A stretch of DNA of 64,000 nt from Flavisolibacter nicotianae (GTDB lineage Bacteria > Bacteroidota > Bacteroidia > Chitinophagales > Chitinophagaceae), in assembly GCF_003628535.1 (NCBI RefSeq), contig NZ_RBCI01000003.1, positions 620,001 to 684,000 on the forward strand, given 5' to 3'. Below the pieces are notes generated by a model. It was not told where the DNA came from. It did not search any database and saw nothing but the letters and a program-made list of their open reading frames with translations. Both the position numbers and the translations under genes were made by a program. This document shows positions 43,496 through 55,115 of this stretch, one piece after another (the first letter of the stretch is position 1; each line of letters starts with the position of its first letter).

Positions 43496-45091
43496 CTACA
43501 CCTGGAAGACGCCGGTTTTGAATTCTGCCATCACCGGCTGGTGATTGGCGGCATGGATGGCTTCCGAAATCACTTTCCGTGTGTCCACTGGATCGATGAT
43601 CTCGTCAACCCACAACCGGGCCGCGGCATAATAGGGTGTTGTTTGTTTTTCGTACCGGTCTTTGATCTTGTTGAGCAGTGCAGCTTCATCTTCCGGCGTA
43701 ATCGTCTGGCCTTTTGCTTTCAGTGCTGCAACCTGGATTTGCAGCAACGTTTTGGCCGCCTGCTCGCCACCCATCACCGCGATCTTGGCCGTTGGCCAGG
43801 CATAAATAAACCGGGGATCATAAGCCTTTCCGCACATGGCATAATTGCCGGCGCCGTAGCTGTTGCCAACAACGATGGTGATCTTCGGCACGACCGAATT
43901 GGCAACGGCATTCACCATTTTTGCGCCGTCTTTGATGATGCCCGCATGCTCGCTGCGGCTGCCCACCATAAAGCCCGTCACGTCCTGCAAAAAAACCAGC
44001 GGAATTTTCTTTTGGTTGCAATTGAGAATGAAGCGTGCGGCCTTGTCGGCGCTGTCGTTGTAAATGACCCCTCCCATCTGCATCTCGCCTTTTTTTGTTT
44101 TGACGATCTTGCGCTGGTTGGCCACAATGCCCACGGCCCAACCGTCGATGCGTGCATAGCCGCAAAGAATGGTTTTGCCATACTCTTCTTTGTATTGATC
44201 AAAAGAGGACTGGTCCACGATGCGTTCGATGACCTCCAGCATATCGTAAGGCCTGGCACCTTCCATTGGAAAAATCGTCAGCAGTTCAGCAGCATTTTTT
44301 GCAGGCGCCTGCGGTTCGATTCGGTCGAAACCGGCCTTTTCTTTTTCCCCCATTTTATCAACGATGCGTTTGATCTGGTCGAGGCATTCCTGCTCGGTTT
44401 TGCATTTGTAATCGGCAATGCCGGAGATCTCGGTATGCGTTTCTGCGCCACCTAGTGTTTCCATGTCGATGTCTTCGCCGATGGCTGCTTTCACCAGGTA
44501 AGGGCCTGCCAGGAAAATGGAACCCTGGCCTTCCACGATCAGGGTTTCATCGCTCATGATGGGGAGGTAGGCACCACCAGCCACACAGGCCCCCATTACC
44601 GCCGCAATCTGCACGATGCCTTTGGCGCTCATCTGTGCATTGTTGTAAAAAATGCGGCCGAAATGTTCTTTATCGGGAAAGATTTCGTCCTGCATGGGCA
44701 GAAATACACCGGCACTGTCCACCAGGTAAATAATCGGAAGGTTGTTTTGCAAGGCAATTTCCTGCATGCGGAGATTTTTCTTGCCTGTAATCGGAAACCA
44801 GGCACCGGCCTTTACCGTTTGATCATTGGCGACAATGACACATTGCCGGCCGCTGACATAACCAAGGCCGGCAACCGTACCGCCGGCAGGGCATCCGCCT
44901 TGCTCCTCGTACATTTCCCAACCGGCAAATGCGCCGATCTCCATAAAGGTTGAAGCGGGATCGATCAGGTACTGGATTCGTTCACGGGCGGTGAGTTTGC
45001 CTTTTTCCTTTTGTTTGGCATTTGCCTTGGGTCCGCCGCCTTCATGCACTTTTTGCAATCGCTGGTTTAGCTCTTCGAGGATGGGTAGCAT
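43496..45091 (-). CDS. Acyl-CoA carboxylase beta (carboxyltransferase) subunit
   Basis: 531 residues, typical of propionyl-/methylcrotonyl-type beta subunits. Motifs include KLTARERIQYLIDPAS, LVDSAGVFLPMQDEIFPD, GACVAGGAYLPIMSDETLIV in the N-half and VVGNSYGAGNYAMCGKAYDP with PTAKIAVMGGEQAA in the C-half, the two oxyanion-type acyl-CoA/biotin sites. The subunit moves carboxyl from biotin to an acyl-CoA. VFLPMQDEIFPD fits methylcrotonyl-CoA carboxylase (leucine breakdown), but specificity cannot be settled here. The biotin-carrying alpha subunit is not in the window. A perfect TATCTTTG box lies at 45126-45133, divergent from the photoreceptor operon. Confidence 0.9.
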   Translation of the reverse strand: MLPILEELNQRLQKVHEGGGPKANAKQKEKGKLTARERIQYLIDPASTFMEIGAFAGWEMYEEQGGCPAGGTVAGLGYVSGRQCVIVANDQTVKAGAWFPITGKKNLRMQEIALQNNLPIIYLVDSAGVFLPMQDEIFPDKEHFGRIFYNNAQMSAKGIVQIAAVMGACVAGGAYLPIMSDETLIVEGQGSIFLAGPYLVKAAIGEDIDMETLGGAETHTEISGIADYKCKTEQECLDQIKRIVDKMGEKEKAGFDRIEPQAPAKNAAELLTIFPMEGARPYDMLEVIERIVDQSSFDQYKEEYGKTILCGYARIDGWAVGIVANQRKIVKTKKGEMQMGGVIYNDSADKAARFILNCNQKKIPLVFLQDVTGFMVGSRSEHAGIIKDGAKMVNAVANSVVPKITIVVGNSYGAGNYAMCGKAYDPRFIYAWPTAKIAVMGGEQAAKTLLQIQVAALKAKGQTITPEDEAALLNKIKDRYEKQTTPYYAAARLWVDEIIDPVDTRKVISEAIHAANHQPVMAEFKTGVFQV

Positions 45092-45185: not shown

Positions 45186-45193
45186 TAATTTTA
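45186..45193 (+). promoter_or_regulatory. -7-like box of the photoreceptor operon
   Basis: TAATTTTA is a one-base variant of TAnnTTTG. Transcription would start near 45199, which favours the second ATG (45210) of the haem oxygenase gene over the first (45198). Confidence 0.4.
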
Positions 45194-45197
45194 CCCA

Positions 45198-45788
45198 ATG
45201 TCCCTAACCATGAGTTTGCCGCAGATAGCTGCGGTGATAAAAGAAACCACCCGGACGTTGCACGAAGAGGTTGAGCAACTGCTCCTACCGCAACTGACAA
45301 CCATCAAAAATCCCGGCGATTACGGCAGCATCCTGAAAATGTTTTATGGCTACTTCCAGCCACTGGAAAACCTCATTCACCAGTATATTACGAAGGAGGA
45401 ACTCCCCGACATTGCAGACCGGAGAAAAGCGGCCGCGATCCGCAACGATCTGAACGCAATTGGCGACAGCGAAATAGCATGGCAGTCTTGCACGCATCTT
45501 CCCCGTCTTCAGAATACAGCCCAGGCTTTTGGTGCATTGTATGTGCTGGAAGGTTCAACGCTTGGCGGGAAAATGATCGCCAAAATGTTGCTGAAAAATG
45601 CTGCGTTTTCCACATGTGAAAATGCCCTGACGTTTTTCTCCGGTTATGGTGAAGACACGGGGAATAAATGGAAAACATTCCTGGACGTTCTCAACCGGCA
45701 GGAAAACGCGGGTGACGTCGTGCATGGCGCCAATGAAACATTTCTTTATCTCAAACGCTGGATGCAGCACTGTTTTTCGCATGAGTAA
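45198..45788 (+). CDS. bphO: Biliverdin-producing haem oxygenase
   Basis: 196 residues; an alternative start at 45210 removes four. The proximal haem-ligand His lies in RTLHEEVEQLL (about residue 22), and the distal helix has the bacterial signature ALYVLEGSTLGGKMIA (about 115-130). Haem oxygenase opens haem to biliverdin, CO and iron. The stop overlaps the following bacteriophytochrome gene by eight bases; such BphO-BphP pairs supply the photoreceptor with its bilin chromophore. Cytoplasmic. It is the first gene of a likely three-gene operon. Confidence 0.92.
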   Translation: MSLTMSLPQIAAVIKETTRTLHEEVEQLLLPQLTTIKNPGDYGSILKMFYGYFQPLENLIHQYITKEELPDIADRRKAAAIRNDLNAIGDSEIAWQSCTHLPRLQNTAQAFGALYVLEGSTLGGKMIAKMLLKNAAFSTCENALTFFSGYGEDTGNKWKTFLDVLNRQENAGDVVHGANETFLYLKRWMQHCFSHE

Positions 45789-47292
45789 GATCCGGAATTT
45801 CGACGCGGAGTTCTGCGGCAAGGTGCCGTTGAACCAAACAAACCTAATACAGCCGCACGGCGTTTTGCTGGTGATCAAAAAGGACGACCTCTCCATTTTG
45901 CAGGCAAGTGAAAATGCCGACTCTGTCTTTGGACAACCGGCCGACGAAATCGTGAAAAGGAAATGGAATGATTTCCTTTCCGATGCCGAATCAACGCAGT
46001 TCGCCCATCTTTTCCAGGGAACCGTCTCTGGTAAGCTGCCCTTTCTTTTCCGGGTCAACAACCAGTTATTCCTTTCGTTGGTAGAACAGCAGGAATTGTT
46101 TTATCTCCTTGAGATCGAAAAAACACCCCACGAAGAAGGCGCCAATACATCGTTTGTCACCATTTACCAGGATGTCAAAAAAGTGATGGCGTCGATCGAC
46201 TCAACGACGACCACCGAAGAAACCTGCAAGGTGGTGGCAAAAGAACTGAAAGCAGTATCCGGATTCGACAAGGTGATGGTCTACTGTTTCGACAAAGGCT
46301 GGAACGGTGATGTAGTTGCCGAGGAAAGGGAACCCGAAATGGAAAGCTATCTAGGGCTCAAGTTTCCTGCGTCGGACATTCCAAAGCAGGCCCGTGACAT
46401 GTACAAGCGGTCGCCTTACCGACTGATCCCTACCACGGAGTACGAAGGCGTACGCCTGTACCCGATTCTCAACCCGCTGACCAATGGCTTCACTGACCTG
46501 ACCTTTTGCAACCTTCGCAGCGTGGCACAGGTGCACCTGGAATATTTGCGGAACATGAAGGTGTGTGCGTCGATGTCGACCCGCATTTTAAAGGATGGTG
46601 AATTGTGGGGACTCATTTCCTGTCACCACCGCGAGCCAAAATATTTGTCGTACGAAATGTGTTCAGTATTTGAATTGCTTTCCGATGTCATTACGACCAA
46701 GATCTCGGCTGTGCAAAACCGTGACAGCTTTCAATATAAATCGCACAAGCAGGACTTGCAAACAAAAGTGATCGGTGCGGTTTTGACGGAAGGTGTTCTC
46801 GGAAAAGAAAAGGAAACCGTCCGTCAGTTACTCGACGCCGATGGCGTAGCTATTGTGAGCAACCAGTCGGTGGAAACCGCCGGCGCCACACCCGGTTTGC
46901 AGGAACTGGAAGACCTGGTCTTTTGGCTGCAGGCCAATAACATCACCGGCCTGTATCACCAGACCTCACTACCCGCCGTATACGAAGCGGCGGAAACCTA
47001 TGCGGGCAGCGGCAGCGGGTTGCTGGCTTTGCCTATCGAGCCGGAAAAAGGTGACTTTTTACTGGCCTTCCGTGGCGAAGCCGTACAGAAGATTGACTGG
47101 GGCGGCAATCCAAACGAAGTGCTCCAGTTTGAAAGCGATGGCAAAAAGTACCATCCCCGGGCTTCTTTCGGGATTTGGAAACAAACCGTGAAAGCAACTG
47201 CGCAACCGTGGAAAAAGGAAACACTTGAAATCGCCGAAGGACTGCGAAATTTTCTTGTGGAGAGCAGGCTTAACAAAAAATATTTTGGATAG
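45781..47292 (+). CDS. bphP: Bacteriophytochrome photosensory module (PAS-GAF-PHY) without output domain
   Basis: 503 residues from MSKIRNFDAEF. The bilin-binding Cys12 lies in FCGKVPLNQTNLIQPHG, the usual place in bacteriophytochromes. The GAF domain has FPASDIPKQARDMYKRSPYRLIPT (the PASDIP motif contacting the chromophore) and LRSVAQVHLEYLRNMKV. The PHY tongue keeps WGGNP and HPRASFGIWKQ. The protein ends after the PHY domain (SRLNKKYFG), with no histidine kinase, so it must signal to a partner. The start lies eight bases inside the haem oxygenase gene. The natural partner is the CheB-CheR-kinase protein 30 bases downstream. Senses red/far-red light by family. Confidence 0.9.
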   Translation: MSKIRNFDAEFCGKVPLNQTNLIQPHGVLLVIKKDDLSILQASENADSVFGQPADEIVKRKWNDFLSDAESTQFAHLFQGTVSGKLPFLFRVNNQLFLSLVEQQELFYLLEIEKTPHEEGANTSFVTIYQDVKKVMASIDSTTTTEETCKVVAKELKAVSGFDKVMVYCFDKGWNGDVVAEEREPEMESYLGLKFPASDIPKQARDMYKRSPYRLIPTTEYEGVRLYPILNPLTNGFTDLTFCNLRSVAQVHLEYLRNMKVCASMSTRILKDGELWGLISCHHREPKYLSYEMCSVFELLSDVITTKISAVQNRDSFQYKSHKQDLQTKVIGAVLTEGVLGKEKETVRQLLDADGVAIVSNQSVETAGATPGLQELEDLVFWLQANNITGLYHQTSLPAVYEAAETYAGSGSGLLALPIEPEKGDFLLAFRGEAVQKIDWGGNPNEVLQFESDGKKYHPRASFGIWKQTVKATAQPWKKETLEIAEGLRNFLVESRLNKKYFG

Positions 47293-47322
47293 TTTTATAA
47301 TTTACTGATTTAATTCTTTCCC

Positions 47323-50300
47323 GTGGTATCATCACCCGAAGCGAAATCCAGGAATACATCTCTTTCTGCCAATGACCATTTCGTAGTGGCCATTGGCGCA
47401 TCGGCTGGTGGCCTCGAAGCGATCCAGGAATTTTTCGACAACATGCCGTCGAACGGCAACCTCTCTTTCATCATCATTCAGCACCTGTCGCCGGACTACA
47501 AAAGCCTGTTGGTAGAGCTGATTTCGAAGCATACATTCATGAAAGTGCGGGAGGCCGCACACAACATGCCGGTCGAAAAAAATTGCGTCTACGTCATTCC
47601 AAACGACAAGCTGCTCACCATCCGTAATGGCGATTTACAATTGACGGAAAAGAAAATTGAAAAGGCACCCAATACGGCCATCGATACGTTTTTAAAATCC
47701 CTGGCGGAAGACCAGGGTAACAAAGCCATCGCCGTCATCCTTTCGGGCACGGGCACGGATGGATCCAAAGGCATTCAAACGATCCAGCATGCCGGGGGTA
47801 TGGTGTTGGTGCAGGACCCGATCTCCGCAAAATTCGACGGAATGCCCAACAGCGCCATCGCATCGGGATTTGCCGATTACATTCTTTCGCCGGAGTTGAT
47901 GCCGGAGGAAATATTCAACTATATCAAGGAACGGCCGGTGCGCCTGACAACGGATGGGCGACCCGACGAATCTTACCTCCCGGAGGTGCTGAAGCTGATT
48001 GAAAAAAGTTGCACCTACGATTTTACCAATTACAAAACACCAACGATCCTCCGCCGTATCGGCCGGCGCATGACCCAGTTGGGATACCGCAAGTTCACCG
48101 ACTATCTGGAATTTCTACGCACCTCTTCGGAAGAGTGCAAGCTGCTGGGAAAGGAATTTTTGATCGGCGTAACCAAATTTTTTCGCGACAAAGCTGCCTT
48201 CGACAGCCTGCGCAACGACGTGTTGAATGAAATCGTACAGTCGAAAAAGGACGGAGATATCATCAAAGTGTGGGGCACAGCCTGCAGCACCGGTGAAGAA
48301 GCGTACTCGATTGCCATTCTGCTCAACGAGATCGTGCAAAGCAGTGAAAAGGATATCGAGATAAAAGTCTTTGCTACCGATATCGACATCGATGCCATAG
48401 AATTTGCTTCTAAAGGCACCTACCCGGCGCAAAGCGTGGCCGAACTGGATGAGCACCTGGTGCGCCGGTATTTCACGCAGCAGGACGGTACGGTTACCGT
48501 CATTCCAGCCCTACGCAAACAAATCGTCTTTGCCCGCCACAACATCCTCAAGGACCCGCCCTTTATCAAAAACGACCTCATTACCTGCCGGAACATGCTG
48601 ATCTACATGAACAATATTTTGCAGCGCAAAGTTTGTTCAACCCTGCAGTTCTCGCTCAATACCGGCGGTTATCTTTTCCTCGGACCCAGCGAAATCCCTG
48701 CCTCCGCGAGGGATAGTTTCCAGGAGATTAACAGCAAGTGGAAGATCTACCGCAAAACAGGGAACGATCTGGCGTATAACCCGGAGCGGTTCCCGTCCAC
48801 GCAGGCCTACAAAAGCCAGCGGGAGCTGCGGTTTGTCGGAGGAAAGGAAAATACGCTGGCGAAAGAACTGGCCGAAGATTTTAAATCGCTGCTGACCGAG
48901 GAGTATGGTTTTGCTGCCGTTTATATCGACAGGAATTTTGATGTGCGGGAAGCCGTTGGCGACTACAAAAAATATTTATCGCTGCCGTCGAAATCCATCA
49001 ACCTCCAGTTGCTGAAGATGGTGCGCCCCGAAGTGTCGGCGGCCTTGAATACGGCACTTCGTCGTGTGACAAAAGATGGAGAAAAAATAAGCTTGCACAA
49101 TGTGCGGATTCGTGGCGACGAAGGCGACCGCGGAGTCAATATTTTTATTAAAGCCGCTGGCCGCGACGGCTACATCATGGTGAGCTTCTCGGACAATCAA
49201 GAGACGCTGACCAAAACGGTGCACGAATACCCGCAGCATCCCACCTCCGAAACGGCCGCCTACATTTCCGAGCTGGAAGATGAGCTGAAGGAGACGCGGA
49301 ACAACCTGCAGATGGCCATCGAAAGCCTGGAGACGGCCAACGAAGAATTGCAGTCGAGCAATGAGGAATTGCTTTCCGCCAATGAAGAACTGCAGTCGAG
49401 CAACGAAGAGCTGCAATCCCTGAACGAGGAGCTTCATACCCTCAATACGGAGCACCAGTTGCGCATCAAAGAGTTGGTGGAGCTGAATGATGACCTGAAC
49501 AACTATTTCCGGAGCACCGAAATTGCACAGGTCTTTGTCGACCGAAACCTGCGGATCCGCAAGTTCAACCCGTCGGCGGTGCAGATGATCAACCTGATTG
49601 AAACGGACATCGGCCGTCCCATCGAACACATCTCCACCAATATTCGCGATTACAATTTGTACAGCGATATCCTGGAGGTGATGAAGAAAAGCTCTGTGCT
49701 GGAAAAAGAAGTGCAACTGGGGAATGGACGTACATCGCTCATGCGCATTTTGCCTTACCTGCGCCAGGACAGAACCACTGATGGCGTCGTGATTTCGTTC
49801 ATCGATATTTCGAACCTAAAGCAACGCGACAACATCCTAAAGGGCGTTTTCAATGCATCGCCCAATGCCATCCTTGCCTTCGATGCATCGCGGAAAGAAG
49901 AGCAGATAAATGGCTTTACAATTCTCCGGGCCAATTATGCCGCCGAAGCCTTGTTGGGAAAGGAAGAAAAAGGCTACAAAGGAAAAAACATCAGGGAAAT
50001 TTATCCAGACCTGCTGAAACGCATTTCGTTTGAGCAAATGGTGTCCATCGTGGAAACGGAGCGGCCCTTGCAGGCGGAGATCTTGCTGCCGACAAAGAAT
50101 GGCCAGGAAGAATGGTTTTTTACGATTGCCACCAAAATGGGCGACGGCATTGCGATGAGCCTTACCAACATCAATGAAAAGAAACTTGCCGAAGAAAAGT
50201 TCCGCCGCAACTACCACGAGTTGCTGAAAGCAAAAGAAAACTACCGCAGGCTGAATGTGGAACTTGAAGAAAAAGTGCGGGAGCGGACATTCGAATTATC

Positions 50301-51876
50301 GGAAAGCGAGGAACGTTTCCGCCTGATTGCCAATGCTACCTCGGATGCAATCTGGGACTGGGACCTGGTGCAAAATAAAGTGTGGTGGAGCGACAGCTTC
50401 TACAGCCGATTTGGTTTCGAGGATGCCGAAGCGGTCAACAACAGTTCTTTCTGGCTCACCCGCATTCATCCCGATGACCGGGAAGCGGTGAACCAGTCCT
50501 TGCAAAACGCAATCAATAACGGCGTAAAGGATTGGATGGCCCGTTTTCGTTTGCAAAAAGCCGACGGTTCCTATGCTGTGATCATGGATAAGGGAACCGT
50601 CCTTGTCGACAGCAATGGCACGCCTTACCGCATGGTTGGTGCCATGATGGATATTACAGAAACGGAAAGGGCATCGCAACTGCTGCAGGGCAAAAATGAC
50701 GAACTGGAGGCGCTGATCCAGGAGTTCGAATTCGTGACGGATTTTATGCCGCAGATGGTGTGGGCCACTCGTCCCGACGGCTACCACGATTTTTACAACA
50801 AGCAGTGGTACGATTACACGGGGCTGAATTTCGAACAGACAAAAAACAAAGGCTGGTCGCTGGTACTGCACCCCGACGACTACGAACGCACCTGGAAAGT
50901 ATGGCAGCATTCGCTGCAGACCGGTGAAGTGTATGAAACCGAGTACCGCATGCGCCGCCACGACGGGCAGTTCCGCTGGTTCCTGGCAAGAGCACTGCCC
51001 ATGCGTGACGAAAATGGAAAAATCCTGAAATGGTTCGGCACCTGCACCGATATCCACGACCAGAAAATGGCGGCCGACATTTTGGAGCAAAAGGTCCGCG
51101 AACGCACCGGTGAACTGCAGAAAGCCAATGCAGAACTGGAAGCCAGCAATACGGAATTGCTGCAGTTTGCCTCCGTAGCCAGCCATGACCTGAAAGAGCC
51201 GCTGCGCAAGATTCATATGTTTGGCAACCTGCTGAAAGACCGTTTCCTCACGGGGAACGACGCGGCCGCCGAGTATATGCAACGCATCATTACGTCTTCG
51301 GCACGGATGACAAGGCTGATCAACGACCTGCTCGACTTTACCCGCCTTTCTGTCAATGCGGAATTCGAACTCACCGATTTGAATCTGGTGGCGGAAGAAG
51401 TGCTGAGCGATCTTGAAATTGCCATCCGTGAAAAGCAGGCCATTATCGAAGTGGATACGTTGCCGCAGGCAGAAGTGATCCCGGGTCAAATCCGGCAGGT
51501 ATTGCAAAACCTGGTGAGCAATGCGCTGAAATTTTCAAAGCAGGATTGCCAGCCACAGATCCGCATTTTCGCCGAAAGTGTGGATACACTGGATATCGAT
51601 GCGCCGCCTTCGGAAAACGGGCCTTATGTGCGCCTCTGGATCACCGATAACGGCATTGGCTTCGACAACCAGTATGCCGAGAAAATTTTTACCATTTTCC
51701 AGCGCCTGCACTCACGGGAGAAATACGAGGGAACGGGCATCGGTTTATCCATTACAAAGAAAATTGTCGAACGGCACAATGGCCTGATCGCCGCCAACAG
51801 CGTAGAAGGAGAGGGCACCCGGTTTGTGCTGGTCCTGCCCAAAAAACAAACCGGGCAAACATCATCTGCCGACTAG
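47323..51876 (+). CDS. CheB-CheR-PAS-histidine kinase fusion protein, 1517 aa
   Basis: GTG start; no nearby ATG. Order of domains: CheB methylesterase at about 18-200 (catalytic Ser in IGASAGG, His in IIQHLSP, Asp in SGTGTDGSKG); CheR methyltransferase at about 215-480 (WGTACSTGEEAYS, DIDIDAIEFAS, then DLITCRNMLIYM); a heptad coiled coil near 650-720 with repeated EELQSSN; a PAS10-type domain; at least three further PAS domains (about 840-1240); HisKA with His1288 in ASHDLKEPL; and HATPase with NALKFSK, DNGIGF and GTGIGLS. No receiver domain and no membrane helix, so a soluble kinase. It follows the phytochrome by 30 bases and is its probable signalling partner. Confidence 0.92.
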   Translation: MVSSPEAKSRNTSLSANDHFVVAIGASAGGLEAIQEFFDNMPSNGNLSFIIIQHLSPDYKSLLVELISKHTFMKVREAAHNMPVEKNCVYVIPNDKLLTIRNGDLQLTEKKIEKAPNTAIDTFLKSLAEDQGNKAIAVILSGTGTDGSKGIQTIQHAGGMVLVQDPISAKFDGMPNSAIASGFADYILSPELMPEEIFNYIKERPVRLTTDGRPDESYLPEVLKLIEKSCTYDFTNYKTPTILRRIGRRMTQLGYRKFTDYLEFLRTSSEECKLLGKEFLIGVTKFFRDKAAFDSLRNDVLNEIVQSKKDGDIIKVWGTACSTGEEAYSIAILLNEIVQSSEKDIEIKVFATDIDIDAIEFASKGTYPAQSVAELDEHLVRRYFTQQDGTVTVIPALRKQIVFARHNILKDPPFIKNDLITCRNMLIYMNNILQRKVCSTLQFSLNTGGYLFLGPSEIPASARDSFQEINSKWKIYRKTGNDLAYNPERFPSTQAYKSQRELRFVGGKENTLAKELAEDFKSLLTEEYGFAAVYIDRNFDVREAVGDYKKYLSLPSKSINLQLLKMVRPEVSAALNTALRRVTKDGEKISLHNVRIRGDEGDRGVNIFIKAAGRDGYIMVSFSDNQETLTKTVHEYPQHPTSETAAYISELEDELKETRNNLQMAIESLETANEELQSSNEELLSANEELQSSNEELQSLNEELHTLNTEHQLRIKELVELNDDLNNYFRSTEIAQVFVDRNLRIRKFNPSAVQMINLIETDIGRPIEHISTNIRDYNLYSDILEVMKKSSVLEKEVQLGNGRTSLMRILPYLRQDRTTDGVVISFIDISNLKQRDNILKGVFNASPNAILAFDASRKEEQINGFTILRANYAAEALLGKEEKGYKGKNIREIYPDLLKRISFEQMVSIVETERPLQAEILLPTKNGQEEWFFTIATKMGDGIAMSLTNINEKKLAEEKFRRNYHELLKAKENYRRLNVELEEKVRERTFELSESEERFRLIANATSDAIWDWDLVQNKVWWSDSFYSRFGFEDAEAVNNSSFWLTRIHPDDREAVNQSLQNAINNGVKDWMARFRLQKADGSYAVIMDKGTVLVDSNGTPYRMVGAMMDITETERASQLLQGKNDELEALIQEFEFVTDFMPQMVWATRPDGYHDFYNKQWYDYTGLNFEQTKNKGWSLVLHPDDYERTWKVWQHSLQTGEVYETEYRMRRHDGQFRWFLARALPMRDENGKILKWFGTCTDIHDQKMAADILEQKVRERTGELQKANAELEASNTELLQFASVASHDLKEPLRKIHMFGNLLKDRFLTGNDAAAEYMQRIITSSARMTRLINDLLDFTRLSVNAEFELTDLNLVAEEVLSDLEIAIREKQAIIEVDTLPQAEVIPGQIRQVLQNLVSNALKFSKQDCQPQIRIFAESVDTLDIDAPPSENGPYVRLWITDNGIGFDNQYAEKIFTIFQRLHSREKYEGTGIGLSITKKIVERHNGLIAANSVEGEGTRFVLVLPKKQTGQTSSAD
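49270..49490 (+). repeat. In-frame heptad-coding repeat in the coiled coil
   Basis: The 21-base units encode EELQSSN-like heptads (ELQSSN, ELLSAN, ELQSSN, ELQSLN, ELHTLN) in a row, forming the signalling helix between CheR and the first PAS domain. This helix is typical of CheBR-PAS proteins; phase between heptads is kept without breaks. Confidence 0.75.
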
Positions 51877-52055: not shown

Positions 52056-55000
52056 ATGACAACGCACCTGAAAATTGGTCTCTTTTTTCTGTTGATCCTT
52101 CTCTTTTTTCAACACCAATCCTCTTTTGCACAATACTTCGGACGAAACAAAGTCCTCTACCAGAATTTTGATTTCCGTGTGTTGCAAACACCGCATTTTG
52201 AAATCTACACCTACCTGCAGGATAGGGAAAAGCGGAACCGCTTCACCGAACGTACAGAGCAGTGGTACAGTATGCATCGACGCCTTTTACAGGATACGTT
52301 TAAAGAACGTAACCCCCTGATCGTTTACAACAGCCATGCGCATTTTCAGCAAACACGTGCCATTGAAGGACAGATCGACGTGGGCACAGGCGGTGTGACC
52401 GAAGGGTTAAAGAACCGTGTAGTGATGCCGTTTATGGAAACCAACGCACAAACCGATCATGTGCTGGGGCACGAGCTGGTGCATGCGTTTCAATACCATC
52501 TCGTAAAAGATTCACTCACACTGAATGCACTGAACAACCTGCCGCTCTGGATGGTGGAAGGCATGGCCGAATATGTTTCTACAGGCTATCGCGATGCCAA
52601 CACGGCGATGTGGTTGCGAAGCGGTGTGGCGGCCGATAAGCTGCCCACATTGAAAGACCTGACCAACCGCCCCGACCTTTATTTTCCTTATCGCTGGGGC
52701 GAAGCGTTTTGGGCTTATGTAACCGGCCGTTTTGGTGATGAAGTTGTCAAACGCGTGTTTATGGAAACGGCACGAAGGGGCTACAACGAAGCCCTGAAAC
52801 GGGTATTGAAAATGGACGAAAAAGAATTCAGCCGGCATTGGCAGGAGGCCATTCGTGCAGCGTATGAACCTTACCGGGCAAAAACGTCCGCTACGCCCCC
52901 GGGCCAGCGCCTGGTGAGTAAGAGCGAGGGTGGGCGGCTCAATCTTGTTCCTTCTATCAGTCCCGATGGAAAGCACATGGCCTTTTGGTCGGAGAAGAAT
53001 TTGTTTTCCATGGACCTCTTCCTTGCCGACGCACAAACAGGTAAAATTCTGAAACGAATCACACGCAATTCGTTCAACTCGCATGTGGACCAATACAGCT
53101 CCTTCGAGTCATCGATCACCTGGTCGCCGGACAGCCATCAACTGGCATTTGTTGCATTTGCCGAAGGGCGCAATCGCCTGCTGATTGCAACCGTGGAAGG
53201 CAGGATCGAACAGCAGCTGGATATTCCCGGGGTAAACAGTTTTTCCAACCCCGCCTGGTCGCCGGATGGAAGCACGATCGTCGTTAACGGCCTGGTAGAA
53301 GGCCAGAGCGACCTGTATGCGTTTATACTGCAAAACAAAATCGTCAGGCAACTCACCAATGATGCCTATTCGGATTTTCAGCCGCAGTATTCTCCCGATG
53401 GAAAATGGATTGTGTTTGCAACGGACCGGCTGTCACTTGGCAACAACCTGTTGCAGCACGACTATTGGCACAACCTGGCGCTTTACAACCTGGCCACCGG
53501 TACTCTTACCAACCTTGATCTTTTCCCGGGTGCAAACAACCTCAACCCGGTTTTTGGCGTAGACAATGAGACCCTCTTTTTTTTATCGGACAGGGACGGT
53601 CTGCGCAATTTGTACAGCTATAACATAGCCTCCCGCCAGTTGAACCAACTGACGAATTTGTTTACCGGCATCGCCGGTATTACGATCTTTTCACCTGCAC
53701 TGAGCCTGGCCCGTAAAACGGGAGAGGTGGTTTACAGCTATTATGCTAACAATGAATACTCCATCAACAAAGCAAGAGACAAGGACTTCCAGCACCACAA
53801 TGTTTCTCCGGCCGATGTGGCCATGCAGGCGGCCGTTATGCCGCCTTTTACCCGGAATGGAGTAGACATTGTGCAAGCGAATATTTCCCGGCCTCCTGCA
53901 GTAACATCGGCGCAGGCAACTTCGGCAGAAGTGCCCTACCGTCCGAAATTCCAGCTCGACTACATTGGCAGCACCGGCGTGGGTGTGCAAACGGGCGGAC
54001 CTTTTGGGACCGGCCTGGCCGGCGGGGTAAATGCAATTTTTAGCGACATGCTTGGCAACAACCAGCTTTTTGGTGCGGTGTCGCTCAATGGCGAGATCTA
54101 TGACCTTGCCGGTCAGTTCGGCTATTTGAATCAAAAGAACCGGCTGAACTGGGGTGCCGGTATTTCCCATATTCCCTACCTCTCGGGTGCGCAGTACCAA
54201 TACCTTGACTCAATGCAAACGAAGAACGGCGATAAGGTGCAAGTCGTTAACAATTCACTCGACCTGCTGCGCACCTTCCAGGACCAGGTTTCCTTGTATG
54301 CTTCCTACCCGTTTTCAACCATTCGGCGCGTTGAAGCCGGTGGCTCTTTTGCCCGGTATTATTACCGGCTCGACCGCTACACCGAATACTACGACCCTGC
54401 CAACTATACCTACCTCGGAGGGAAAAAAGAAAAGCAACCTACGCCGTCGGGTTTCAATTTCGGCCAGGTATACACGGCACTGATTGGCGACAATTCATCG
54501 TTTGGCGTTGCATCGCCGTTGGTCGGCAGTCGCTACCGGCTGGAGGGAGCGCAGTATTTCGGAGTGGTAAATCTGACCAACGTGACGGCCGATTACCGGA
54601 AGTATTTCCGGTTTCAGCCGTTTACGTTTGCTACCCGCAACATGTATATCGGCCGCTTCGGGAGAGATGCGGAAAGCGGTGTGCTGCCACCGCTTTATCT
54701 TGGTTATCCTTTCCTGGTGCGGGGCTATGAAGCGTTGGCTTATGCCAACAACACCAGCCAGACCGCTGTTTCCATCAACGACCTGGTTGGAAGCCGCATC
54801 TATGTGACCAATGCCGAGTTGCGCCTGCCCTTTACCGGGCCAGAGCGCCTGTCGGCGATCAAATCGGGTTTTTTGTTGACGGAGCTAAACCTGTTTACCG
54901 ACGGCGGTATTGCCTGGGGCAATCGCAACCTGTTGTCGGAACAGGATAAAACAGGAGAGGTGCAACGGGCCTCCCGGTTTATTGTAAGCAGCGGCGTTTC

Positions 55001-55115
55001 GATACGGGTAAACCTGTTTGGGGCGCTGGTTGTCGAGCCGTATTATGCAATCCCGTGGCAGAACGGCGGCTTTGCGAATGCGTCGTTTGGATTGAACTTT
55101 ACACCGGGATTTTAG
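52056..55115 (+). CDS. HExxH peptidase-like domain with TolB-type propeller and C-terminal outer-membrane barrel, 1019 aa
   Basis: Signal peptide ending SSFAQ. The first 260 residues are a gluzincin-like domain with H139, E140 and H143 in HELVHAFQYH and the Glu in WMVEGMAEY (E168, 25 residues after the second His). Next come beta-propeller repeats of TolB/WD40 type (AWSPDGSTIV, QYSPDGKWIVFATDR, LFFLSDRDG), to about residue 610. From about 640 the sequence has strand patterns and ends in a barrel-like strand (GGFANASFGLNFTPGF), as in BamA-type surface antigens. Probably a surface-bound peptidase; its physiological substrate is unknown. No close neighbour on the same strand. Confidence 0.78.
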   Translation: MTTHLKIGLFFLLILLFFQHQSSFAQYFGRNKVLYQNFDFRVLQTPHFEIYTYLQDREKRNRFTERTEQWYSMHRRLLQDTFKERNPLIVYNSHAHFQQTRAIEGQIDVGTGGVTEGLKNRVVMPFMETNAQTDHVLGHELVHAFQYHLVKDSLTLNALNNLPLWMVEGMAEYVSTGYRDANTAMWLRSGVAADKLPTLKDLTNRPDLYFPYRWGEAFWAYVTGRFGDEVVKRVFMETARRGYNEALKRVLKMDEKEFSRHWQEAIRAAYEPYRAKTSATPPGQRLVSKSEGGRLNLVPSISPDGKHMAFWSEKNLFSMDLFLADAQTGKILKRITRNSFNSHVDQYSSFESSITWSPDSHQLAFVAFAEGRNRLLIATVEGRIEQQLDIPGVNSFSNPAWSPDGSTIVVNGLVEGQSDLYAFILQNKIVRQLTNDAYSDFQPQYSPDGKWIVFATDRLSLGNNLLQHDYWHNLALYNLATGTLTNLDLFPGANNLNPVFGVDNETLFFLSDRDGLRNLYSYNIASRQLNQLTNLFTGIAGITIFSPALSLARKTGEVVYSYYANNEYSINKARDKDFQHHNVSPADVAMQAAVMPPFTRNGVDIVQANISRPPAVTSAQATSAEVPYRPKFQLDYIGSTGVGVQTGGPFGTGLAGGVNAIFSDMLGNNQLFGAVSLNGEIYDLAGQFGYLNQKNRLNWGAGISHIPYLSGAQYQYLDSMQTKNGDKVQVVNNSLDLLRTFQDQVSLYASYPFSTIRRVEAGGSFARYYYRLDRYTEYYDPANYTYLGGKKEKQPTPSGFNFGQVYTALIGDNSSFGVASPLVGSRYRLEGAQYFGVVNLTNVTADYRKYFRFQPFTFATRNMYIGRFGRDAESGVLPPLYLGYPFLVRGYEALAYANNTSQTAVSINDLVGSRIYVTNAELRLPFTGPERLSAIKSGFLLTELNLFTDGGIAWGNRNLLSEQDKTGEVQRASRFIVSSGVSIRVNLFGALVVEPYYAIPWQNGGFANASFGLNFTPGF

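Follow-up and report, generated by a model that had tools for sequence, protein, structure and literature searches.

We analysed a 64,000-nucleotide stretch of the Flavisolibacter nicotianae genome (contig NZ_RBCI01000003.1, positions 620,001 to 684,000 of the forward strand; the window hereafter) in which three consecutive plus-strand genes encode a heme oxygenase, a bacteriophytochrome without an output domain (output-less) and a histidine kinase with CheB, CheR and PAS domains. Frames and coordinates were rechecked. The heme oxygenase (196 amino acids; 45198..45788, with ATG at 45198 and stop at 45786-45788; PF01126, E 3e-10) is followed by the PAS-GAF-PHY phytochrome (503 amino acids; 45781..47292, ATG at 45781; Pfam PAS_2, GAF and PHY) and then by the kinase (1517 amino acids; 47323..51876, GTG start), which was assigned as the partner from Pfam matches, its kinase clade and adjacency. 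An earlier note on this DNA had described the same three genes with an overlap of 8 bases and a spacing of 30 bases, and the frames and Pfam matches confirmed the set, the overlap (45781-45788) and the gap (47293-47322). Its start at 45186 lies 12 bp upstream of the heme oxygenase ATG. The analysis established the gene anatomy, conservation among relatives, co-inheritance, the domain pattern and a lack of chemoreceptors. We read the genes as a conserved split bacteriophytochrome system, in which the sensing of light and the onward signal seem to be divided between two co-inherited proteins.

The phytochrome ended right after PHY, as the earlier note had said. The PHY match ran to the C-terminus, as far as residue 501 in a scanned stretch of 505 residues that begins two codons before the ATG, and a covalent C-terminal kinase was absent (the protein scored 294.5 bits on NCBIfam NF041576, BphP, whose cut-off is 1040). 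The best PDB sequence match was a solved phytochrome photosensory module (E 7.5e-94). The AlphaFold2 model, with a mean predicted local distance difference test score of 86.3 and a last helix at 479-502, likewise retrieved phytochrome photosensory modules with Foldseek (best E 4.2e-45). The residues expected for bilin binding were present at Cys12, Asp199, His252 and His282 and at Arg460 and Ser462 of the tongue, which reads PRASF. They correspond to the N-terminal biliverdin-binding cysteine, the Asp of the DIP motif, the GAF histidine pair and the PHY tongue motif PRxSF of bacteriophytochromes. The residues checked were kept in all 26 members of the phytochrome clade described below, with DIP-motif variants of AADIP in one member, SSDIP in one and ASDVP in three. 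From these conserved residues, the protein is predicted to bind biliverdin, which the heme oxygenase would supply, at Cys12 and to switch with red and far-red light. It was the sole PHY match in this 6.09-Mb genome and was 68% identical to the F. longurius phytochrome; the genus-mate G104 and F. ginsengisoli DSM 18119 have phytochromes with the same last 480 residues.

The kinase begins with a CheB methylesterase domain (47386..47913, plus strand as for all its domains; PF01339; Ser27, His54 and Asp146) and CheR_N and CheR methyltransferase domains (47986..48744; PF03705 and PF01739, with motifs). Between CheR and the first PAS domain lies a putative coiled coil of five heptads with Glu-Glu pairs (49243..49464), assigned from its heptad pattern. 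PAS10 (49465..49815; PF13596 and a hidden Markov model, HMM) and PAS2 (49828..50217; HMM) follow, and after a second coil come PAS3 (50344..50685, residues 1008-1121; HMM), which is the candidate in-trans receiver, and PAS4 (50719..51072; HMM), which is not needed for the linkage. The protein ends in HisKA, with His1288, and HATPase (51103..51873; PF00512, PF02518 and trees). Pfam matched CheB, CheR_N, CheR, PAS_10, other PAS families, HisKA and HATPase and found neither GAF nor PHY, which bore out the earlier description of a kinase with PAS domains but no bilin-binding part. The CheB triad, the CheR motifs, the HisKA histidine and HATPase were all intact.

A search of related genomes for the gene order, as proposed in the earlier note, was made in two sets. 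In 294 genomes of the same family, 47 had a PHY protein and the 50 PHY neighbourhoods comprised 28 kinase-bearing (728-901 amino acids) and 22 output-less (about 500-560 amino acids) phytochromes; a 23rd output-less phytochrome (L114 in genome G546) came from another family of the same class. Directly after 21 of these 23 stood a CheB-CheR-PAS kinase. At L064 the following gene was a PAS2-PAS3-PAS4-kinase without CheB and CheR, and at L035 no kinase adjoined. The second set consisted of the best 80 of 205 relatives in a profile scan, picked for likeness to the output-less phytochromes, so that the 78 output-less proteins among the 80 are not a frequency. A CheB-CheR gene came next in 77 of the 78, and in the remaining one (L279, from the same genome as L064) the kinase without CheB and CheR followed. 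The 77 partners included 71 complete through the kinase module, five truncated by contig ends and one (L312) in two open reading frames. Counting as distinct those proteins whose last 480 residues were not identical, and with 10 output-less proteins shared by the two sets, 91 distinct output-less phytochromes were obtained, and 89 of these (21 + 77 - 9) were directly followed by a CheB-CheR gene; one exception had the kinase lacking CheB and CheR and one stood alone. Because this order recurs so widely, chance adjacency is excluded. At L312, in a Mucilaginibacter metagenome-assembled genome, the two frames of the partner kinase were a 600-amino-acid CheB-CheR frame and then PAS10-PAS2-PAS3. 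The kinase at L064:9823-12210 (genome G111; also seen as L279) lacks CheB, CheR and PAS10 and keeps PAS2-PAS3-PAS4-kinase.

In the profile-scan set the median gap between phytochrome and kinase genes was 10 bp, with overlap in 18/78, gene starts being taken as the first possible codon. Hosts included Flavisolibacter, Chitinophaga, Niastella, Pedobacter, Mucilaginibacter, Pontibacter, Rufibacter and Adhaeribacter, genera that belong to three orders. Heme oxygenase was less tightly linked to the phytochrome than the kinase was, as it immediately preceded the phytochrome gene, on the same strand, in 31/78 loci and was among the neighbouring genes in 35/78. In a sample of 395 genomes across the phylum the PHY matches were mostly kinase-bearing, so the split form is a minority there; above the cut-off, output-less length was found only in this genome, in G004 and in one of two matches in G546. 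Truncation of the phytochrome through recent frameshifting or misassembly was rejected and has a negligible probability: nothing was found in its favour, 91 distinct short phytochromes were found and the next gene, 30 bp later, begins with its own CheB domain.

The phytochrome and the kinase each fell into a single clade. A tree of 62 phytochromes placed every one of the 23 output-less proteins in one clade of 26 (support 100/100), and nested within it were three fused forms, L034, L076 and L070, which are best read as re-fusions. The kinase tree held 78 CheB-CheR segments, made up of the 21 partners and 57 others from the family among the matches listed (L178 and L186, with no CheB hit, were outside this tree and were included in the domain-profile scan). 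Partner kinases formed one clade of 23 (support 100/99) that included L156 (G179) and L173 (G085), and no PHY was found in either of these two genomes. The earlier note had held that kinase genes standing without the phytochrome in related genomes would speak against the pair; two of the 23 clade members are of this kind, and both are best read as later losses, the phytochrome having probably been lost secondarily since both kinases are nested in the partner clade. Kinase modules have also been exchanged: at L055, L079 and L114 the partner has another kind of HisKA-HATPase. A bootstrapped kinase tree, from which 11 rows had been removed (these three partners and rows on long branches), placed the fused kinase modules of L034 and L076 among the partner kinases (95/77). 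The L070 module, on a long branch, was among them in quick trees and was one of the rows removed from the bootstrapped tree. The L173 kinase (L173:4570-8355) has neither PAS3 nor PAS4, and the two genes downstream of it are 275 and 583 amino acids long, close to the 277 and 582 at the phytochrome-keeping locus L060 when lengths only are compared.

As the phytochrome has no covalent kinase, the proposed reading is that these genes form a split bacteriophytochrome two-component system, with the sensor and the kinase as separate proteins and the phytochrome passing its signal in trans to the product of the neighbouring kinase gene. We give this a probability of about 0.72. The earlier note had made the same proposal, and it gained comparative support from adjacency, the single clade on each side, the nested fusions and domain gain and loss. 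Two observations pull the other way: in quick trees the L034 and L076 kinase modules fell just outside the partner kinases, and the output-less phytochrome at L035:8045-9541 (G108), with intact bilin residues, has neither a kinase nor a heme oxygenase among its nearest genes. Alternatively, the two genes might be co-transcribed but functionally separate, with the phytochrome acting on another target, much as is presumed for short LOV proteins, and the kinase sensing its own PAS ligands. The family has many CheB-CheR-PAS kinases with no phytochrome beside them (among the matches listed, 57 entered the tree and 55 of those fall outside the partner clade), the L156 and L173 kinases persist without a phytochrome as L035 does without a kinase, and the mirror-tree signal given below was not specific to PAS3. 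Adjacency in 89/91 cases over many genera, clade-to-clade co-inheritance and fusions to related kinase modules would, however, be hard to obtain through shared transcription alone, and we consider two functionally separate proteins unlikely.

Within the in-trans scheme, PAS3 is the candidate for receiving the phytochrome signal, since domain gain and loss place it in all complete linked kinases scored and show it gone from the fusions and from one of the two losses. The domain HMMs were built from the 21 family-sample and L114 partners themselves, and PAS3 was found in all 21 at at least 154 bits (the same sequences that built the HMM), in the L064 kinase without CheB and CheR at 119 bits and in all 71 complete profile-scan partners at 114.9 bits or more. 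PAS4 exceeded 60 bits in only 26 of these 71. PAS3 was retained where PAS4 was lost (6/21) or the kinase module differs (3/21). HMM scans found no PAS3 in seven of seven sister kinases (L135, L136, L137, L148, L149, L153 and L185), in the phytochrome-less L173 kinase or in the three fused forms, which were PHY-PAS4-kinase (L034 and L076) and PHY-kinase (L070). Among the matches listed, only one of 59 non-linked CheR kinases had PAS3 above 60 bits, the nested L156 (115 bits). These patterns suggest that the phytochrome would most likely contact the PAS3 segment of the kinase dimer and alter the coil driving HisKA. Several results weigh against assigning this role to PAS3. A mirror-tree comparison of distance matrices over 71 pairs did not single out PAS3, the partial correlations with the phytochrome being 0.35 for CheR, 0.29 for PAS2, 0.21 for the second coil and 0.19 for PAS3. 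L156 retains PAS3 although no PHY was found in its genome; this PAS3 diverges faster (ratio 0.685, interval 0.57-0.80, compared to 0.918 for its other domains), but two phytochrome-bearing Flaviaesturariibacter likewise show a diverged PAS3, which weakens the argument from decay.

The earlier note had further suggested that the CheB and CheR domains may adapt the response to light. In the 71 complete profile-scan kinases the catalytic residues checked were invariant save at a single CheR position, which is E in 61 kinases and Q in 10, and each of the ten glutamates of the coil (674/675, 681/682, 688/689, 695/696 and 702/703) was invariant in all 71. NEEL-type motifs occurred in all 57 non-partner CheB-CheR kinases, among the matches listed, at 2 to 8 per whole protein, compared to at most one in each of 39 fused phytochromes. 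The chemoreceptor signal domain PF00015 had no match in this genome, the same search being positive in 7/14 control genomes, and chemoreceptors were found in just one of 24 clade genomes (G288), the other 23 being without. Since chemoreceptors are missing here, the Glu-Glu coil of the kinase itself is the candidate cis substrate of CheR and CheB, and methylation of the coil in cis is the simplest reading, by which CheR and CheB would probably methylate and demethylate the coil and so reset sensitivity. The two domains might instead be directed at a different protein, either the phytochrome or a partner other than a chemoreceptor, or serve as a scaffold, a possibility that concerns the methylation step only, is compatible with a split system signalling in trans and to which we give somewhat less than even odds. 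The full chemoreceptor methylation consensus was missing from 54/71 kinases, which weakens the case for the coil; the partial correlation with the phytochrome was highest for CheR, and the L064 kinase is linked without CheB or CheR. The intact catalytic residues, the invariant coil glutamates and the distribution of the NEEL-type motifs argue on the other side, for the coil. The conserved catalytic residues are in keeping with the earlier suggestion, but because this genome has no chemoreceptor and L064 does without both domains, adaptation is no more than a possible role of CheB and CheR. A stand-alone CheB (open frame of 226 amino acids) lies elsewhere in this genome (C7:51302-67054) amid histidine kinase and receiver matches, with no chemoreceptors.

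Output was considered from the genes beside the pair. Next to the trio are a carboxyltransferase (43496-45091, minus strand) and a WD40-like/peptidase-like protein (52056-55115, plus strand). No regulator or chemoreceptor gene adjoins it, in keeping with the earlier note, and no cognate regulator was found in the window. The genus-mates G004, G104 and G227 lack an adjacent regulator as well. The earlier remark that the target is open still holds for this genome, though some relatives have an adjacent receiver-domain gene: one came next on the same strand in 12 of the 21 family-sample and L114 partner loci and in 23 of the 78 profile-scan loci. Ten of the 12 were of one type, and L071 and L079 carried others. 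The kinase would be expected to phosphorylate a single-domain CheY-like regulator, adjacent in some relatives and encoded elsewhere in this genome.

Among 73 receiver matches here, the closest to an operon regulator (taken from G209) was C3:128373-128747. In the reverse search, among the matches listed, the operon regulator was the best hit in nine of the ten genomes that carry one of that type, and in G209 it ranked second. The C3 regulator was rejected as an orthologue and is treated as the closest paralogue because it ends a probable Kai cluster, recognised from its neighbourhood as kaiC-kaiB-kaiB-PAS kinase-regulator (C3:128359-132401; L124:5359-9401). The same cluster type was found in G004, G104, G227, G209, G288, G293 and G259, with one or both kaiB genes in some clusters hidden by overlapping open reading frames and recovered by a KaiB search. 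KaiC here scored 748.5 bits against a cut-off of 408 (PRK09302) and 357.8 against 546.25 (TIGR02655), and the two KaiBs were below their cut-offs (102.3 and 88 against 110; 97.1 and 86.5 against 145.3). A third, more distant KaiB-like match lies at C6:162697-162957 (E 2.5e-11).

In a quick tree the ten operon and five Kai-cluster regulators formed one clade (Shimodaira-Hasegawa-like approximate likelihood ratio test 94) that excluded 24 other regulator rows from this genome (22 distinct; 24 of 29 own-genome regulator loci gave a row and two pairs were identical) and 24 regulators next to fused phytochromes. In the bootstrapped kinase tree the eight Kai-cluster kinases grouped with ten partner kinases, precisely those whose loci carry a regulator of that type (99/99). 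Both trees thus indicate that the Kai and phytochrome kinase-regulator pairs share ancestry as a pair. Among the matches listed, Kai-type regulators occurred in 7/11 output-less family genomes without the operon-type regulator compared to 1/10 with it (Fisher 0.024, ignoring kinship; counts tallied by hand from match lists and neighbourhoods, with G546, which has none, left out, 7/12 if counted, and G108 outside the search). KaiB matches were present in 19 of 47 genomes with PHY compared to 18 of 247 others (Fisher 5e-8, ignoring genome size and kinship, with counts again tallied by hand), with no clear preference for the output-less form (10/22 compared to 9/25 other PHY genomes). As the genus has the Kai-cluster regulator and not the operon regulator, the phytochrome kinase and the Kai-cluster kinase might converge on one regulator, which would give a Kai timer in a non-photosynthetic bacterium a light input. 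The closest other kinase here to the Kai kinase was the window kinase (258.1 bits; the next, 254.5). The kinase module of the window genus falls outside the 18-member clade of Kai and partner kinases, and the Kai regulator comes with a kinase of its own; both count against a shared regulator here. Positions chosen as setting phosphotransfer specificity were only mildly similar. We regard such convergence as unlikely.

Parts of this arrangement resemble known systems. DrBphP and Agp1, bacteriophytochrome histidine kinases with a cognate response regulator in the cited excerpt (PMC8292422), share PAS-GAF-PHY with an N-terminal Cys, a histidine kinase and, in some relatives of our locus, a single-domain regulator; unlike them, the sensor and kinase here are separate, the kinase also contains CheB, CheR and four PAS domains, and no regulator is adjacent. 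Short LOV proteins, which in the portion of PMC6798134 used have no effector and presumably act in trans, are likewise photosensors without a covalent effector, but the sensor here is of the bilin, red-light type and has one conserved, genetically linked kinase partner. Other CheB-CheR-PAS-histidine kinases of the family have the order CheB-CheR-Glu coil-PAS-kinase in common with it and the sister clade shares PAS10-PAS2-kinase, whereas the linked clade has PAS3, in many cases also PAS4, and a phytochrome gene beside it. Ppr of Rhodocista centenaria, according to the passage cited a single fused protein whose kinase domain binds CheW (PMC2993699), also ties a bilin-type photosensor to chemotaxis proteins, but here there are no chemoreceptors and CheB and CheR are inside the kinase. 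In sensory rhodopsin-Htr, as far as the cited excerpts go, a separate photosensor is bound to a transducer that CheR/CheB methylation is proposed to tune (PMC5812497, PMC6798134). The pair here resembles it in the separate photosensor and in the proposed tuning by CheR/CheB, and differs in that our phytochrome and kinase are soluble, CheR and CheB are fused to the kinase and there is no chemoreceptor. Among the open-access matches listed, by titles and abstract openings and with subscription papers mostly outside this scope, no description of a split phytochrome-CheB/CheR kinase pair was found.

A naturally split phytochrome thus occurs in many Bacteroidota genera, and because sensor and kinase are two proteins and the kinase partner can be named, signal transfer without a covalent helix is directly testable. 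The relatives provide a natural deletion series, with forms that have no CheB/CheR, no PAS4, another kinase module, a fused kinase or a lost phytochrome. The pair also offers a system for asking what CheB and CheR do without chemoreceptors, and for asking whether phytochromes are connected to Kai proteins in bacteria that do not photosynthesise; this relationship is called unexplored for non-photosynthetic prokaryotes in PMC11832031.

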